From a virus: a stretch of DNA of 34,614 nucleotides. The notes below the pieces were generated by a model. The model was not told the origin of the DNA, ran no database searches, and saw nothing but the letters and a program-made list of their open reading frames with translations. Every line of letters starts with the position of its first letter. The first letter of the stretch is position 1. Below are positions 7,429-12,005 of the stretch, piece by piece. The stretch spans positions 1-34,614 of the IMG/VR virus record IMGVR_UViG_3300030329_005192, one strand, 5' to 3'. Both the position numbers and the translations under genes were made by a program.

Positions 7429-7545
7429 GACAACTTTCTGGTATTAGTTCAACAACTTGTTGTTGCTATCTCGGTTACCACAGTTGTGGACGGTGCCATA
7501 CCCAAGTGTGGAGAGCAACAACTTTCTGTAGGGGGATCAAACAAC
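7429..7545. promoter_or_regulatory. Switch region with three operator-like sites
   Basis: Holds a perfect palindrome CAACAACTTGTTGTTG (7450-7465), flanked by an 11-base direct repeat ACAACTTTCTG at 7430-7440 and 7520-7530 that reads as degenerate versions of the same site. A second palindrome type, CCACA-GT-TGTGG, lies at 7478-7489. The arrangement of a strong central and two outer sites recalls lambda operators. Transcription starts in both directions are expected but no consensus promoter can be fixed. Confidence 0.6.
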
Positions 7546-7644
7546 ATGACATTGCTCCACGCGCTCTATCACCGTTGGCGAGGTCGAGCGCACCTTCGCT
7601 GCAACCTGTGCCACGCACTGATCCAGCACGTCGAGGTGCGCTGA
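7546..7644 (+). CDS. 32-aa CxxC micro-protein coupled to SSB gene
   Basis: ATG at 7546 preceded by GGGGGA (7531-7536) at nine bases. It encodes 32 residues, basic, with RCNLCH near the middle, and its stop shares a base with the SSB start (TGATG, 7642-7646). The first half is His/Arg/Leu-rich. It may be a real micro-protein or simply a translated leader that delivers ribosomes to the SSB gene. No known family is recognised. Confidence 0.4.
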   Translation: MTLLHALYHRWRGRAHLRCNLCHALIQHVEVR

Positions 7645-8000
7645 TGGCAAGAAATCTCACAGCCTCCGGCCACCTGCACACCGTGCTGCCGACCAAGGTC
7701 ATCAGCGATTCGTTTCGCGTTCGCGAGTTCGTATTGGAGCGCGATCAGAGCGGCAAATATCCGCAGCTCGTTCTTTTCCAGGCCACGAACGACGCCTGCG
7801 AGAAGCTCGACGAACTGCACGTCGGCGACGAAATCGAGGTCGAGTTCGATCTACGCGGTCGCCAGTGGACGAACCGCGACGGCGACATCAAGTTTTTCAA
7901 CTCGCTCAACGTGTGGCGGTGGGACGTGCTGAAACGCGCTGCGCCACCTGAACCAGCGCCGGCGCCCTCGCCTGCTGTTGACGACGACATCCCCTTTTAG
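7644..8000 (+). CDS. SSB-like OB-fold protein (DUF3127 type)
   Basis: 118 aa. Starts MARNLTASGHLHTVLP; an early strand (GHLHTVLPTKV), then FRVREFVLE, YPQLVLFQATNDACEKLDEL and VGDEIEVEFDLRGRQW match the OB-fold of DUF3127 single-stranded-DNA-binding proteins. The last six residues, DDDIPF, are the acidic tip by which bacterial SSB proteins recruit repair enzymes, which strongly supports the call. The Pro/Ala-rich linker before the tip is also typical. It heads the recombination operon, just upstream of the ERF annealase. GAGG (7633-7636) and one-base overlap with the preceding micro-ORF set the start. Role: coat and protect ssDNA during replication and annealing. Confidence 0.85.
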   Translation: MARNLTASGHLHTVLPTKVISDSFRVREFVLERDQSGKYPQLVLFQATNDACEKLDELHVGDEIEVEFDLRGRQWTNRDGDIKFFNSLNVWRWDVLKRAAPPEPAPAPSPAVDDDIPF

Positions 8001-8003
8001 TGG

Positions 8004-8258
8004 ATGGGTGATGTTTGCACGTCACAGACGTGTTTTCGTTTTTTTGAGGCGCAGGTTCTGCGCGACGCGCTGCGCAGGCTGCTGACCGAGATTGGTGCCG
8101 ACGGGTGCGAGTCGTGCAATGGGACGGGCGGCGAGCCGTTTGGCAAGCGTCTTTACTCGCGTGACCGGATGGAAATTGTCGAGGACGTGATTACGCACTA
8201 CGGCGATCCCGACGTGGACCCGTGCGACGACTGCTTAGGGACAGGAGTGGAACTGTGA
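8004..8258 (+). CDS. DnaJ-type zinc-finger protein
   Basis: 84 aa with two CxxCxGxG motifs, CESCNGTG (35-42) and CDDCLGTG (74-81), the pair that binds one zinc in DnaJ-like cysteine-rich domains. No J domain is present. The start is uncertain: ATG 8004 has no good ribosome binding site and the first 14 codons contain a hairpin followed by a T-tract, but no other in-frame start codon lies before the first conserved helix (VLRDALRRLL). Its stop overlaps the GTG start of the ERF gene (GTGA). Such small zinc proteins are common in phage recombination operons; the partner is unknown. Confidence 0.65.
   Translation: MGDVCTSQTCFRFFEAQVLRDALRRLLTEIGADGCESCNGTGGEPFGKRLYSRDRMEIVEDVITHYGDPDVDPCDDCLGTGVEL
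8018..8045 (+). terminator. Terminator-like hairpin in the start of a coding region
   Basis: CACGTC (8018-8023), loop ACA, GACGTG (8027-8032), then TTTTCGTTTTTTT (8033-8045). The stem is only 6 bp but the T-tract is long. It lies in the first codons of the DnaJ-type gene, directly after the SSB gene, and could reduce transcription of the downstream ERF/methyltransferase genes unless translation or antitermination overrides it. Confidence 0.45.
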
Positions 8259-8926
8259 AGAATTTGTTCGCCGCGCTAGCGGCCTTCCAGGGCGATGTGG
8301 GACCAGTTTTTCAGGACGACAGCAACCCGCACTTCAAGAGCCGTTTCGCCAGCACGAAACAGATCATGGAGACGATTCGGCCCCATCTTCGCAAGCACGG
8401 TCTGGCGGTCGTGCAGTTTCCAAAGTCTGGGCCGGACAACAGCGCGGGTTGCAGAACGATTGTCCTGCATGAAAGCGGCGAGTCGCTGGAAGGTGACTTT
8501 TTCGTGCCTCTAGGCGCGAAGGTGGACGCCCAGCGCGCCGTTTCGGCGGTGTCCTACGCGCGGCGAGCTTCACTGAGCGGAGCACTGGGCCTCGTCTCAG
8601 CAAGCGACATGGACACGGACGGCGAGGATCTGGTCGATCGCGGCAGGCCTGCGCTGAAGCCTCCTTCAACTCCCAAGGCAGCAATGAAGGTTGTGCAGCC
8701 TGCACCAGTCGCCGGACCTGCGATGAGCAAGCCCTCTCGCGAGAAGCTCAAGTTTTGCGCTCGAGAACGGCTCAAGGAGTTGAAAATCGAGGACGCCAAG
8801 GACAGCGACGTTCTGGGAATCATCACCGCATTTGCGGTGACGAAAAACACGACGCCGAAAAGCCTGAAAGAAGACGTTTTTGGTGACGCGCTTGAGTGGA
8901 TTCAAGCGTGGGAGCCTGGAGCGTGA
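8255..8926 (+). CDS. erf: ERF-family single-strand annealing protein
   Basis: 223 aa from GTG 8255, which overlaps the previous stop and has AGGAG seven bases upstream. N-terminal features of the ERF family: FAALAAFQGDVGPVFQDDSN, FKSRFASTKQIMETIRPHL and KHGLAVVQFP, then a strand-rich core with LGAKVDAQRAVSAVSYARR, SLSGALGLVS and DTDGED, which form the family's conserved GSAITYARRYxL-like block and end. The C-terminal part (about 165-223) is a variable helical domain. ERF proteins anneal complementary ssDNA, used for genome circularisation or recombination, and commonly work with SSB, present two genes upstream. Confidence 0.9.
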   Translation: MKNLFAALAAFQGDVGPVFQDDSNPHFKSRFASTKQIMETIRPHLRKHGLAVVQFPKSGPDNSAGCRTIVLHESGESLEGDFFVPLGAKVDAQRAVSAVSYARRASLSGALGLVSASDMDTDGEDLVDRGRPALKPPSTPKAAMKVVQPAPVAGPAMSKPSREKLKFCARERLKELKIEDAKDSDVLGIITAFAVTKNTTPKSLKEDVFGDALEWIQAWEPGA

Positions 8927-9147
8927 GCAAGTTCTCTTGCCACGATTTGGTTTCCGCGCGCTTGTCGTCGGTTGAAAACGCAGGCGAGGACGATCCGGCT
9001 GACGTGATGCTGCTGACATTGTTGACCAGCGCTCGCGATCAGCACTTGAAGAACGCTGCGTGGCACGAGCGGCAGGCGACGAAGTGCGAGGACGAAATCG
9101 AAGCGGTCGCTGCCCGTTTTAAGGTGGAATCGGAAGCCGATTTTTGA
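8923..9147 (+). CDS. Small hypothetical protein in recombination operon
   Basis: 74 aa from GTG 8923 (GTGA overlap with the ERF stop; GGAG at 8911-8914 upstream). Acidic, mostly helical, with a conserved-looking LLTLLTSARDQHLKNAAWHE segment and a C-terminal VAARFKVES. No family recognised. The gap of 97 bases after it holds only the GGAGG ribosome binding site of the methyltransferase. Confidence 0.55.
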   Translation: MSKFSCHDLVSARLSSVENAGEDDPADVMLLTLLTSARDQHLKNAAWHERQATKCEDEIEAVAARFKVESEADF

Positions 9148-9244
9148 GCGTCGATGATGCGCGGGGTAGTAAGGCCCAAAACGCGCATTCATCCCCCTTG
9201 CGGGCTTGGCCCACCCGTGACGCGAAACGGGCCGGAGGCAACGC

Positions 9245-10213
9245 GTGAATGGCATGGCTTTATTTGCCGGCATCGGTGGACTCGAATTGGGAATCAAACT
9301 CGCAATCCCGACCTACCGAACATTGGTTTACGTCGAGCGCGAAGCCTATTGTGCGGCCAATCTCGTCGCGCGATTTGCAGAGTGCGAATCGACAATGGGT
9401 CAAACTGCTTTTGCCCCAGCGCCAGTCTGGGACGACATCGAGTCGTTCGACGCAAAGCGATGGGCTGAATCGACTGATCTCATCAGCGCGGGCTGGCCGT
9501 GTACCGACATCAGTCTGGCGGGCACCGGAAAAGGGCTCGACGGAGAACGAAGCGGACTCTGGCGAGAGGTCGCTCGCTGCATTCGCGAGGTGGGACCAGA
9601 CCTCGTCTTGCTGGAAAACTCCCCAGCGCTCACTGTTCGCGGACTGGACCGAGTCCTCGGTGACTTGGCCGAATGCGGGTACGATGCGGCATGGGATGTG
9701 TTTTCAGCGGGAGGCAGCGGGCCTAACGGCTGCGGAGCGCCACACCTCCGGCGGCGGATCTTCATACTCGCGAAACGAGTACTTGACGCCAGCAGCGACA
9801 TCCTACGGGACGAATCGCGGAGGCGGTCAGGGCAGGACGGGCGAGTTCAGACCGAGCCTAGACACTTGGGCGAAGACTTGGCCGACACCGACAGCCGGGG
9901 ACGCGAAGTCGTCGGGAGCGGCCGGGTACTCAACGGCGAGCGGGAGGCATTCGGGGACGACGCTGACGGACGCAGCGAGTGGCGCCCGTGGCCCCCTGGC
10001 CCAAACGACGACGACGGATGGCGCGACTACATCGACGCCGGAGGGCCGTCCCCAGCTCTCAGCCGACTTCGTGGAGGCTCTGATGGGCTTCCCACCGGGC
10101 TGGTCTATCGCAACGATCGGCTCCGGTCCCTCGGAAACGCAGTTTCGCCAATATGTGCAGCGCTGGCGCTCCGAACTCTTGCAGCTCGTCTCGGGGTGAA
10201 TCTTGACGGTTGA
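9245..10213 (+). CDS. C5 cytosine DNA methyltransferase (Dcm family)
   Basis: 322 aa from GTG 9245 (GGAGG at 9234-9238, six bases upstream). Motif I FAGIGGLELG (7-16) binds SAM; an acidic residue after VYVERE (28-33) fits motif II; motif IV SAGWPCTDIS has catalytic Cys86; motif VI reads ENSPAL (124-129), ENS rather than the usual ENV; motif VIII RRRIFILA (169-176) and motif X RLRSLGNAVSP (292-302) are present. The target-recognition region (about 180-285) contains LADTDSRG and PWPPGPNDDDGW, as in many phage orphan methyltransferases. No restriction enzyme gene is nearby, so it probably protects phage DNA. Unusually, the +1 frame is open along almost the whole gene (next entry). Confidence 0.9.
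   Translation: MNGMALFAGIGGLELGIKLAIPTYRTLVYVEREAYCAANLVARFAECESTMGQTAFAPAPVWDDIESFDAKRWAESTDLISAGWPCTDISLAGTGKGLDGERSGLWREVARCIREVGPDLVLLENSPALTVRGLDRVLGDLAECGYDAAWDVFSAGGSGPNGCGAPHLRRRIFILAKRVLDASSDILRDESRRRSGQDGRVQTEPRHLGEDLADTDSRGREVVGSGRVLNGEREAFGDDADGRSEWRPWPPGPNDDDGWRDYIDAGGPSPALSRLRGGSDGLPTGLVYRNDRLRSLGNAVSPICAALALRTLAARLGVNLDG
9249..10199 (+). other. Overprinted open frame inside the methyltransferase gene
   Basis: A 316-codon open frame, +1 relative to the methyltransferase, starting at ATG 9249, ten bases after the same GGAGG. From about residue 121 it reads SCWKTPQRSLFADWTES, TWPNAGTMRHGM (about 139-150), LTPAATSYGTNRGGGQGR (179-196), RPSLDTWAKTWPTPTAGDAK (201-220) and FVEALMGFPPGWS (274-286). 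To my recollection these match a recurrent phage/prophage sequence type (WPRSGxMRNG..., PTPTAxD, FVEWLMGFPxGW) often annotated as methylase C-terminus. The N-terminal 110 residues look random. It may be expressed as a separate protein, reached by frameshift, or be a non-expressed relic. Which, the sequence cannot say. Confidence 0.45.
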
Positions 10214-10463
10214 GACGTTCTTTGCGCAAGCCCGGAAGCGCTGGCTGGCTGGTCGTCAGGAGCGCGGACTCGATCTGGAGGCGCCGTTTCAGGGCGGCGA
10301 TCCCGCTCAGGAGTTCATCGAGGAGGTTCTCGACGCGTCGAACTATCTTTGGCAGATGGAACTGCGGGGCCAAGTTTCGGAAGAAGTCGGTCGGCGAGCT
10401 CGCGGAATGTTGTTTGAGCTGTACTCGATGGCGCAGATGGCGATGGAGGAGGAACGAGGATGA
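10203..10463 (+). CDS. Small protein with MazG-like EExxD element
   Basis: 86 aa from TTG 10203, with GGGGTG six bases upstream, overlapping the methyltransferase end. Helical throughout; AQEFIEEVLDASNYLWQMEL (35-54) is reminiscent of the ExxE...EExxD metal-binding helices of MazG-type nucleotide pyrophosphohydrolases, but only one clear EExxD half is seen, and no second acidic pair. It overlaps the next start (ATGA). If it is MazG-like it could sanitise or reshape nucleotide pools; otherwise a hypothetical protein. Confidence 0.5.
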   Translation: MTVETFFAQARKRWLAGRQERGLDLEAPFQGGDPAQEFIEEVLDASNYLWQMELRGQVSEEVGRRARGMLFELYSMAQMAMEEERG

Positions 10464-10729
10464 CTGCGATCGAGCGAACGAACATTCCGTGGCGTGAACT
10501 GCCGCACCTCAGAATTTCGGAAGCCGCCGAGATTGCAGGGATTTCTAGGCGTGCGATGGAGCGCCATATCGACGACGAAAGTCTCGAGATTCGACGAATC
10601 GGACAGGTGCGGTTTATCACTGTCCCCTCGTTTTGCTGCTGGCTGGGCGAAGCGGAAAACGCATCGCCGACGCCTGCGACAGATTTGTCCACTCAGGAGC
10701 GTGAAGTGATTCGGCGATTGTCGAGATAG
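10460..10729 (+). CDS. xis: Excisionase-like MerR-type HTH protein
   Basis: 89 aa. Residues about 14-55, LPHLRISEAAEIAGISRRAM then ERHIDDESLEIRRIGQVRFI, fit the winged-helix excisionase/helix-turn-helix 17 fold: an initial helix with AAEIAGIS and a short beta wing reading IRRIGQVRFI. Immediate position upstream of the integrase, together with ATGA overlap with the previous gene, supports a recombination directionality factor. The C-terminus is low complexity then a short helix. An alternative is a small transcriptional regulator. Confidence 0.65.
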   Translation: MTAIERTNIPWRELPHLRISEAAEIAGISRRAMERHIDDESLEIRRIGQVRFITVPSFCCWLGEAENASPTPATDLSTQEREVIRRLSR

Positions 10730-10742
10730 GGGGAGTTCAAAA

Positions 10743-12005
10743 ATGGCAAAGACAGCGAAGGCGATCGAGCGGTTCCGCACGAACAAGAAGACCGGCGAGC
10801 GGCGCAGTCGCGGCTGGTACATCCAAGTCTACGACACCGTCACAAAAGAACGGAAGTGGGAGAAGCAGTCGGACGAGGCCAGCGCCAAACGGATTGCAGA
10901 CGGCATCAACGAGGCCGCGCGCGGTCACGCGCTGTTGCAGTCGGCGGCGCCGTCGTATCCGGCTGATGCGATGCTCGACGCATTTCTAGACGCCAAAATG
11001 CCGATCCTGTCGCCTGCGACCTACGACGGATATGAGACGCAAATTCGCGTTCATCTCAAGCCAACCCTCGGCTCGACAGACCTTGCAAGCGTGGACGAAG
11101 CGTGGGTGAATACGTTCGTTCGTGAGCAGTTGCTCGCGAAAAACGGGCTGAACAAGCAGAACTCGATCTATCAAATGCTTCAGCCGTTGGCGGCGACGTA
11201 CAAGTGGCTCATCGAGAAAAAGCAAGCCAACCTTGTCCACCCGGTGAAAGGGATGCGAGCGCGCATCAAACAGATCGGCGATTCGTGGGCTCCCAAATCC
11301 GAACCGAGCGCCAAAGACGCTTGGACGCAGGAGGAAGTGGCTCGCATTCTGGCGTATCTCGAGGCGCACGATCCGACCATGCACCTGATCTTCCAGACCG
11401 CGATCTCGACCGGCATTCGGAGCGGAGAACTGCGCGGGCTGCGCTGGCAAAACGTCCAACTGCCGCACTCGATCCGAATTGAGAAGAACGCGCGCAAGGA
11501 CGGTACGCTTGGACCCACCAAGGGCAAAAACGAACGCACGGTCCCGCTGCCTGGGCCACTCGCTAAGGCCTTGGCGCAGCATCAGGAGAGCCGCCACGCC
11601 CGCGACGGCCTGACCGCTCCCGGCCGCGTCTTTACGAAGCCCAGCGGAGAAATTTGGGACTACGACTCGTTCGCCAACCGCTTCGACGGGCTACGGGCGA
11701 AAATGACCCTGCGGGAGATCAACGCGCGGCCCTTCACGTTCCACTCGACACGGCACACCTACGCCTCCTGGGCGCTAATGGCGAACCGGCCGGTGATCTG
11801 GGTCAGCAAGGTTCTGGGACACGCGGACATCAAAACCACGCTCGAAACCTACGCCCACGTCATCCCCGACATGGCGCCCGATCTGTCGTTTCTGGGGGCG
11901 CTCGACACGGGAAATGGGGGCGATTTGGGGGTGGTCACAAAGACTGTGACCAACTGTGACCACTTGACGCAAGCAAGTGTACACCCGATATCGCAAGTAC
12001 CTTGA
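10743..12005 (+). CDS. int: Tyrosine recombinase/integrase
   Basis: 420 aa. An arm-binding-like N-terminal segment (about 1-60, including a GWYIQVYDTVTKERKW strand pair), a core-binding SAM-like domain (about 72-170) and the catalytic domain. Catalytic residues visible: Arg226 in STGIRSGELRGLRW, Lys about 260 in GPTKGKNERTVPLP, His334 and Arg337 in HSTRH, His360 in VLGHADIKTT, and nucleophile Tyr370 in LETYAHV. The last 25 residues are encoded across candidate arm-type repeats (11931-11963) and may be a by-product of those sites. It is followed 16 bases later by the tRNA-identical att core, as in phages that integrate into tRNA genes. Role: integration and, with the Xis-like protein, excision. 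Confidence 0.95.
   Translation: MAKTAKAIERFRTNKKTGERRSRGWYIQVYDTVTKERKWEKQSDEASAKRIADGINEAARGHALLQSAAPSYPADAMLDAFLDAKMPILSPATYDGYETQIRVHLKPTLGSTDLASVDEAWVNTFVREQLLAKNGLNKQNSIYQMLQPLAATYKWLIEKKQANLVHPVKGMRARIKQIGDSWAPKSEPSAKDAWTQEEVARILAYLEAHDPTMHLIFQTAISTGIRSGELRGLRWQNVQLPHSIRIEKNARKDGTLGPTKGKNERTVPLPGPLAKALAQHQESRHARDGLTAPGRVFTKPSGEIWDYDSFANRFDGLRAKMTLREINARPFTFHSTRHTYASWALMANRPVIWVSKVLGHADIKTTLETYAHVIPDMAPDLSFLGALDTGNGGDLGVVTKTVTNCDHLTQASVHPISQVP
11931..11963. repeat. TGTGACCA repeats, candidate integrase arm sites
   Basis: GTGGTCACA (11931-11939) is an exact inverted copy of TGTGACCAC (11955-11963), and a third copy CTGTGACCA lies at 11944-11952, ten bases before its direct twin (11954-11962). 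They fall in the 3' end of int, about 60-90 bp from the tRNA-identical core, a usual place for arm-type integrase sites. GTGTACAC (11977-11984) is a further short palindrome. Confidence 0.5.

Follow-up and report, generated by a model that had tools for sequence, protein, structure and literature searches.

Two overlapping reading frames of a phage C5-cytosine methyltransferase gene both code and probably specify one two-subunit enzyme

In the virus record IMGVR_UViG_3300030329_005192 of IMG/VR (taken whole, 34,614 nucleotides, hereafter the window), a C5-cytosine methyltransferase gene is overlapped by a second open frame, and both frames code: the +1 frame is a real coding sequence. We consider it probable that the frame 0 product (alpha) and the +1 product (beta) together form one enzyme, a heterodimeric C5-methyltransferase of the M.EcoHK31I kind. 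The data directly support coding in both frames, the division of selection among three zones, and conservation of the second start, and they show that beta is homologous to the stretch of single-chain relatives that lies between motifs VIII and X. The features of the locus are as follows.

9234..9238, + strand: Shine-Dalgarno-like GGAGG serving both starts (read in the sequence).
9245..10213, + strand: alpha, C5-cytosine methyltransferase with motifs I–VIII and X and no recognizable IX (PF00145, PHROG 363).
9249..10199, + strand: beta, +1 open reading frame of 316 aa with its own ATG after a TGA (PHROG 1008; zero +1 stops; ATG kept in relatives).
9245..9556, + strand: zone 1, codons 1–104, amino-acid constraint mainly in frame 0 (motifs I and IV), +1 stop-free (substitutions, shuffle nulls).
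9557..9769, + strand: zone 2, codons 105–175, constraint in both frames (VI and VIII in frame 0; SCWKTPQRSLFADW and TWPNAGTMRHGM in +1; substitutions, shuffle z).
9770..10099, + strand: zone 3, codons 176–285, +1 constrained, frame 0 an open, unconserved linker (window against 83 relatives; codon-position shares).
9879..9890, + strand: WPTP motif of beta (translation, alignment A6).
10056..10103, + strand: motif-IX-like block of beta, LSADFVEALMGFPPGW (alignments A1, A3, and A6; hhalign of A6 to A7).
10118..10213, + strand: motif X end of alpha (RLRSLGNAVSPICAALALRTL), where frame 0 constraint returns (third-position share of 0.82 in relatives).

Alpha begins at a GTG (9245) and is 322 aa long. 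Profile searches match it to PF00145 (1.1e-25) and PHROG 363 (2.2e-49), and the PF00145 residues of the AdoMet-binding motif I, the catalytic PC (IV), EN (VI), and RxR (VIII) are found in frame 0, as is motif X (LGNAV). A sequence-only reading of this DNA had placed motifs I, IV, VI, VIII, and X in this frame, and all are present; we add that no motif IX is recognizable there. A motif-IX-like LMGFPPGW occurs in the +1 frame only and is homologous to the block that precedes motif X in fused relatives. The same reading described a +1 frame open for 316 codons with its own ATG and a common GGAGG, and the sequence agrees: a TGA immediately precedes the ATG, and the GGAGG is spaced 6 nt from the GTG and 10 nt from the ATG. 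The residue pairs that it gave also stand, LADTDSRG in frame 0 being WPTPTAG in +1 and SDGLPTG in frame 0 being ALMGFPPG in +1. The comparison of the +1 translation with protein families that it proposed returned a real family, PHROG 1008 (3.3e-23; residues 66–286 on positions 28–279 of the 329-position profile), and no match in Pfam or NCBIfam. PHROG 363 and PHROG 1008 are both named DNA methyltransferase, and their descriptions are silent on overlapping frames of one locus.

Stop codons are avoided in the +1 frame. The window has none, compared with a mean of 4.3 when frame 0 codons are shuffled synonymously, and not one of 400 such shuffles was free of +1 stops. In 47 non-redundant genome loci, which were selected by frame 0 motifs (the viral loci were selected through the +1 frame), codons 10–60, 60–104, 104–165, and 165–240 hold 0, 0, 0, and 1 stops in +1, compared with 29, 41, 68, and 42 expected from the synonymous shuffle. 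This amounts to 1 stop against about 180 over codons 10–240, none against about 139 over codons 10–165, and none against 70 in zone 1. Stops in the +2 control are close to or above expectation in all bins. Openness of +1 is not a general property of C5-methyltransferases, as Escherichia coli dcm and a canonical methyltransferase (L200) have 14 stops each in this frame.

Substitutions between close relatives show where each frame is under selection. In pairs with 85–95% nucleotide identity, not all of which are independent, amino-acid identity in +1 equals or exceeds that in frame 0, and the constraint falls into three zones: frame 0 alone (codons ~1–100), both frames (~100–160), and +1 alone (~160–280). 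At codons 60–100 of the relatives only frame 0 is constrained, with 0.75 of substitutions at third positions and +1 identity equal to that of +2; within zone 1 the third-position share reaches 0.95. Both frames are constrained in close pairs at codons 100–172. Substitutions then shift from third to first codon positions (codons 161–280), and at codons 172–262 only +1 is constrained: the first-position share is about 0.58 and the third 0.20, and +1 identity is 0.82–0.84, whereas frame 0 is no better conserved than +2 (0.58–0.65). Across relatives the first-position share in zone 3 ranges from 0.42 to 0.79. At motif X, where the third-position share is 0.82, frame 0 is constrained anew.

The window itself is divergent from its relatives (38–46% identity in frame 0, 25–34% in +1), and statistics for the window only rest on distant relatives. 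Against 83 of these, the mean z over codons 176–283 is 4.6 for +1, compared with 0.7 for frame 0 and 0.2 for +2. In zone 2, +1 reaches z values of 2.4 and 4.4 over the synonymous-shuffle null with the +2 control raised there too; the value of 4.4 belongs to codons 136–175, where +2 stands at 2.7. At codons 31–104 the z for +1 is about 0, not above the synonymous null. An initial shuffle test across relatives was inflated by common descent, as its high +2 control showed, and was replaced by the close-pair, stop-avoidance, and distant-window tests.

The start of beta is conserved as well. Among 96 non-redundant loci, the +1 ATG is kept in 89 and replaced by GTG in 3 more, and a stop codon directly precedes the +1 start in 86. 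The ATG is kept even where frame 0 codon 1 is TTA, leaving frame 0 without a start there, and some of the TTA loci have an upstream in-frame ATG for alpha. The second frame 0 codon is AAT in 86 of the 96 loci; elsewhere AAC outnumbers AAT by 504 to 312. The kept ATG, taken with stop avoidance over codons 10–104 where +1 residues are hardly constrained, indicates that this ATG is where translation of +1 begins. Internal starts for beta were set aside for the nested clade, no strongly conserved internal ATG being found upstream of the conserved block. In Paenibacillus phage Diva and in Firecracker, +1 has stops upstream, and so beta must start internally there.

The arrangement is widespread. 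Both frames are open over one DNA in virus Rctr197k, where only the +1 ORF is annotated, and likewise in Pseudomonas phPA-G, Microcystis Mwe-JY08, and Acinetobacter ABMM1, the last with a +1 ORF of 298 codons in a region of 42% G+C. That the frames are open in phages of quite different G+C content, ABMM1 included, supports coding in both. With the +1 protein of ABMM1 as query, IMG/VR yielded at least 599 viral relatives; nearly all of the 80 considered are stop-free in both frames, with 11–28 stops in +2. The viral scan with the window's frame 0 protein found nothing. In GTDB, a frame 0 profile retrieved 155 bacterial relatives, in which +1 likewise stays open nearly to its end; they belong to Pseudomonadota, Myxococcota, Verrucomicrobiota, Planctomycetota, Spirochaetota, and other phyla. 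The search of E. coli gave prophage-type relatives only. One locus, in the E. coli PCP07014 prophage (L201:2500–3261), is called a pseudogene by RefSeq for an internal stop, and its altered stretch stops both frame 0 and +1. Another locus (L159) has one frame 0 stop just before motif VIII and an uninterrupted +1. In a small tree of the catalytic domain, the nested form is one clade (SH-aLRT 99) with the Paraburkholderia locus L173 inside it; motif X therefore changed frames at least once within the clade.

The nature of beta is revealed by fused and split relatives. L192, L194, and L199 each have one ORF that extends from motifs I–VIII through LPTP repeats and EWMMGWPEGW to motif X. The L192 ORF is matched by both PHROG 363 (1–455) and PHROG 1008 (248–454), and the fused ORFs of L194 and L199 join the same two families. 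Twister, Firecracker, and L173 have an alpha that stops after motif VIII, with the LPTP/WPTP region, IX, and X all encoded by the +1 ORF. The beta alignment headed by the window (type A, A6) aligns with that of beta types B and C (A7) with an hhalign probability of 98% (E = 1.7e-13), and the Twister query also retrieved canonical L200, in which ECERLQGWPDDW...MIGNGV corresponds to EWMMGWPEGW...MIGNGV. From these relatives and alignments, beta contains the segment between motifs VIII and X, that is, the recognition domain and motif IX. Beta is not a copy of alpha, as their profiles showed no similarity when compared. A long ORF in a further locus (L196:1376–2779), with many LPTP repeats followed by MMGWPEGW and motif X, appears from its sequence to be a beta expanded by repeats; the methyltransferase-type ENVRGI motif of that locus lies in a separate upstream ORF.

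Division of a C5-methyltransferase between two chains has precedent. The 176-aa small subunit of M.EcoHK31I is reportedly read from an alternative frame inside the large-subunit gene. In M.EcoHK31I, as in M.EaeI, the large subunit holds motifs I–VIII and X and the small subunit IX (PMC3404938), and the window is likened to it by this distribution of motifs, alpha having I–VIII and X and the second frame's protein having IX. The window differs in that its +1 ORF starts 4 nt after alpha and, at 316 aa, covers almost all of the gene, and the predicted recognition domain of M.EcoHK31I is in the large subunit (PMC3404938), whereas selection here points to +1. In M.AquI, the distal recognition region and motif IX are on the second polypeptide (PMC3404938), as in the window, but the AquI small subunit also has motif X, which in the window stays in alpha. 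A second polypeptide of AquI type, with IX and X, is found in L002, L173, and L202 and not in the window, where +1 lacks X; Twister, Firecracker, and L173 share with AquI the placement of X on the second polypeptide. The ShiLan element, an out-of-frame HNH endonuclease within a phage methylase (PMC11855218), is likewise a case of a phage methylase gene that holds an additional protein in a different frame, but it is a mobile insertion, whereas here the core and tail of the methylase itself are overlapped. In Diva, the same nested +1 ORF (gp50, "g49 internal gene") was annotated by its depositor with no function proposed, and unlike that of the window it starts internally. No description of this overlap in phages was found in the mainly open-access literature searched.

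The window also differs from the M.EcoHK31I restriction–modification system in that no restriction-enzyme gene was recognized among the seven neighboring ORFs: a Pfam scan of 7584–12002 gave DUF3127, ERF, HTH_17, phage integrase, and three ORFs with no match. A cognate restriction enzyme is a feature of such a system and not of methyltransferase architecture. Upstream (7506–8926), a DUF3127 protein and an ERF-type recombinase place a phage recombination module beside the methyltransferase. An 86-aa ORF with no Pfam match (10203–10463) overlaps the end of alpha by 11 nt and is followed by an HTH_17 ORF (10460–10729, below the family cut-off) and an integrase (10743–12005).

Could the +1 sequence be reached by frameshifting instead of from its own start? 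A shift after motif VIII would fuse frame 0 motifs I–VIII to the +1 C terminus, yielding a single polypeptide whose recognition domain is an alternative one, and near motif VIII the constraint does pass from frame 0 to +1. In-frame fusions exist, and alpha of Twister-like loci terminates next to the point where the LPTP region of beta begins. However, the avoidance of +1 stops at codons 10–104 and the constraint on +1 residues at 101–160 both lie ahead of any position where a shift would be useful; the +1 ATG is conserved; and nested loci keep motif X in frame 0, so that a single shift would lose X. For the split loci frameshifting is a possibility, yet it leaves stop avoidance and constraint upstream of the junction unaccounted for. 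For the gene as a whole, we regard this switched C terminus, which the sequence-only reading had offered beside dual coding, as unlikely, two separate starts being the better account.

Slightly less likely still is that beta is an overprinted protein outside the methyltransferase, such as a regulator or a counter-defense protein. The conserved N-terminal block of beta (SSWKTSQ...GTMRNG) is absent from the single-chain fusions, and no confident structure prediction was obtained for the +1 protein (AlphaFold on the protein alone, pLDDT 52, pTM 0.27). Beta profiles had no meaningful match among solved structures; the predicted model of L192 matches the fold of M.HhaI through its catalytic domain, and the beta part of the fused model has no clear match to a known recognition domain. 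Against an unrelated function, the C-terminal half of beta is fused between VIII and X in L192, L194, and L199, and in Twister, Firecracker, and L173 motif X is itself part of beta.

That the resemblance seen in +1 is a frame-shadow, cast by a conserved methyltransferase gene in G+C-rich DNA, as the earlier reading feared for the WPTPTAxD family, is highly improbable. At codons 31–104 of the window, +1 conservation does not exceed what frame 0 would impose by itself, but the shadow reading is refuted for codons 105–285 and was rejected by the synonymous-shuffle, codon-position, and window-specific tests. Against it stand the first-position excess, conservation of +1 beyond the demands of frame 0 after motif VIII, the avoidance throughout of stops that synonymous frame 0 variation would freely bring in a shadow, the absence of an open +1 in dcm and L200, and the presence of +1 where frame 0 has already terminated or continues into it as one frame, in relatives that are not shadows. 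The roles at the C terminus are in fact reversed, as frame 0 between motifs VIII and X is unconstrained filler and itself the shadow. Dual coding is thus borne out by stop avoidance, codon-position substitutions, and window-specific conservation, and the frame-by-frame comparison of close pairs shows +1 under selection, in three zones.

In the favored two-subunit enzyme, a ribosome starting at GTG 9245 would produce alpha, with the AdoMet-binding and catalytic domain (I–VIII), a linker with no detected sequence constraint, and motif X. Initiation at ATG 9249, 4 nt downstream in +1, would produce beta, in which an N-terminal stretch with little amino-acid constraint would lead to the conserved block over motifs VI–VIII and then to the WPTP region and motif IX as target-recognition lobe. 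Alpha and beta would assemble, with beta supplying sequence specificity, and the assembled enzyme may methylate DNA and protect that of the phage. In its strict form, with alpha as I–VIII and X, this model leaves two genome loci (L113 and L162) unexplained: frame 0 stops just after motif VIII, a motif-X-like tail lies farther along frame 0, and +1 is intact. These loci may be intermediates toward an AquI-like split or may have been damaged recently.

A broader proposal, which we favor with some reserve, is that a large clade of phage and prophage methyltransferases normally takes the form of a nearly complete double-coding gene, of ~310 codons and with two starts separated by 4 nt, with the recognition domain in the second frame only, PHROG 363 and PHROG 1008 as halves of one enzyme, and the N terminus of beta overprinted on the catalytic domain. 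If so, specificity would be free to evolve in +1, where frame 0 need only stay open. Long same-strand overlaps selected in both frames are rare, and an overlap that persists in many phages and in several bacterial phyla, with the work clearly divided between the frames, would be a natural model for shared constraint. The arrangement occurs in hundreds of phages and bacteria and is usually annotated as one of its two proteins; many annotated orphan phage methyltransferases may therefore lack half of the enzyme, and recoded cloning of the annotated ORF would eliminate beta, so that tests of activity or specificity could come out falsely negative.
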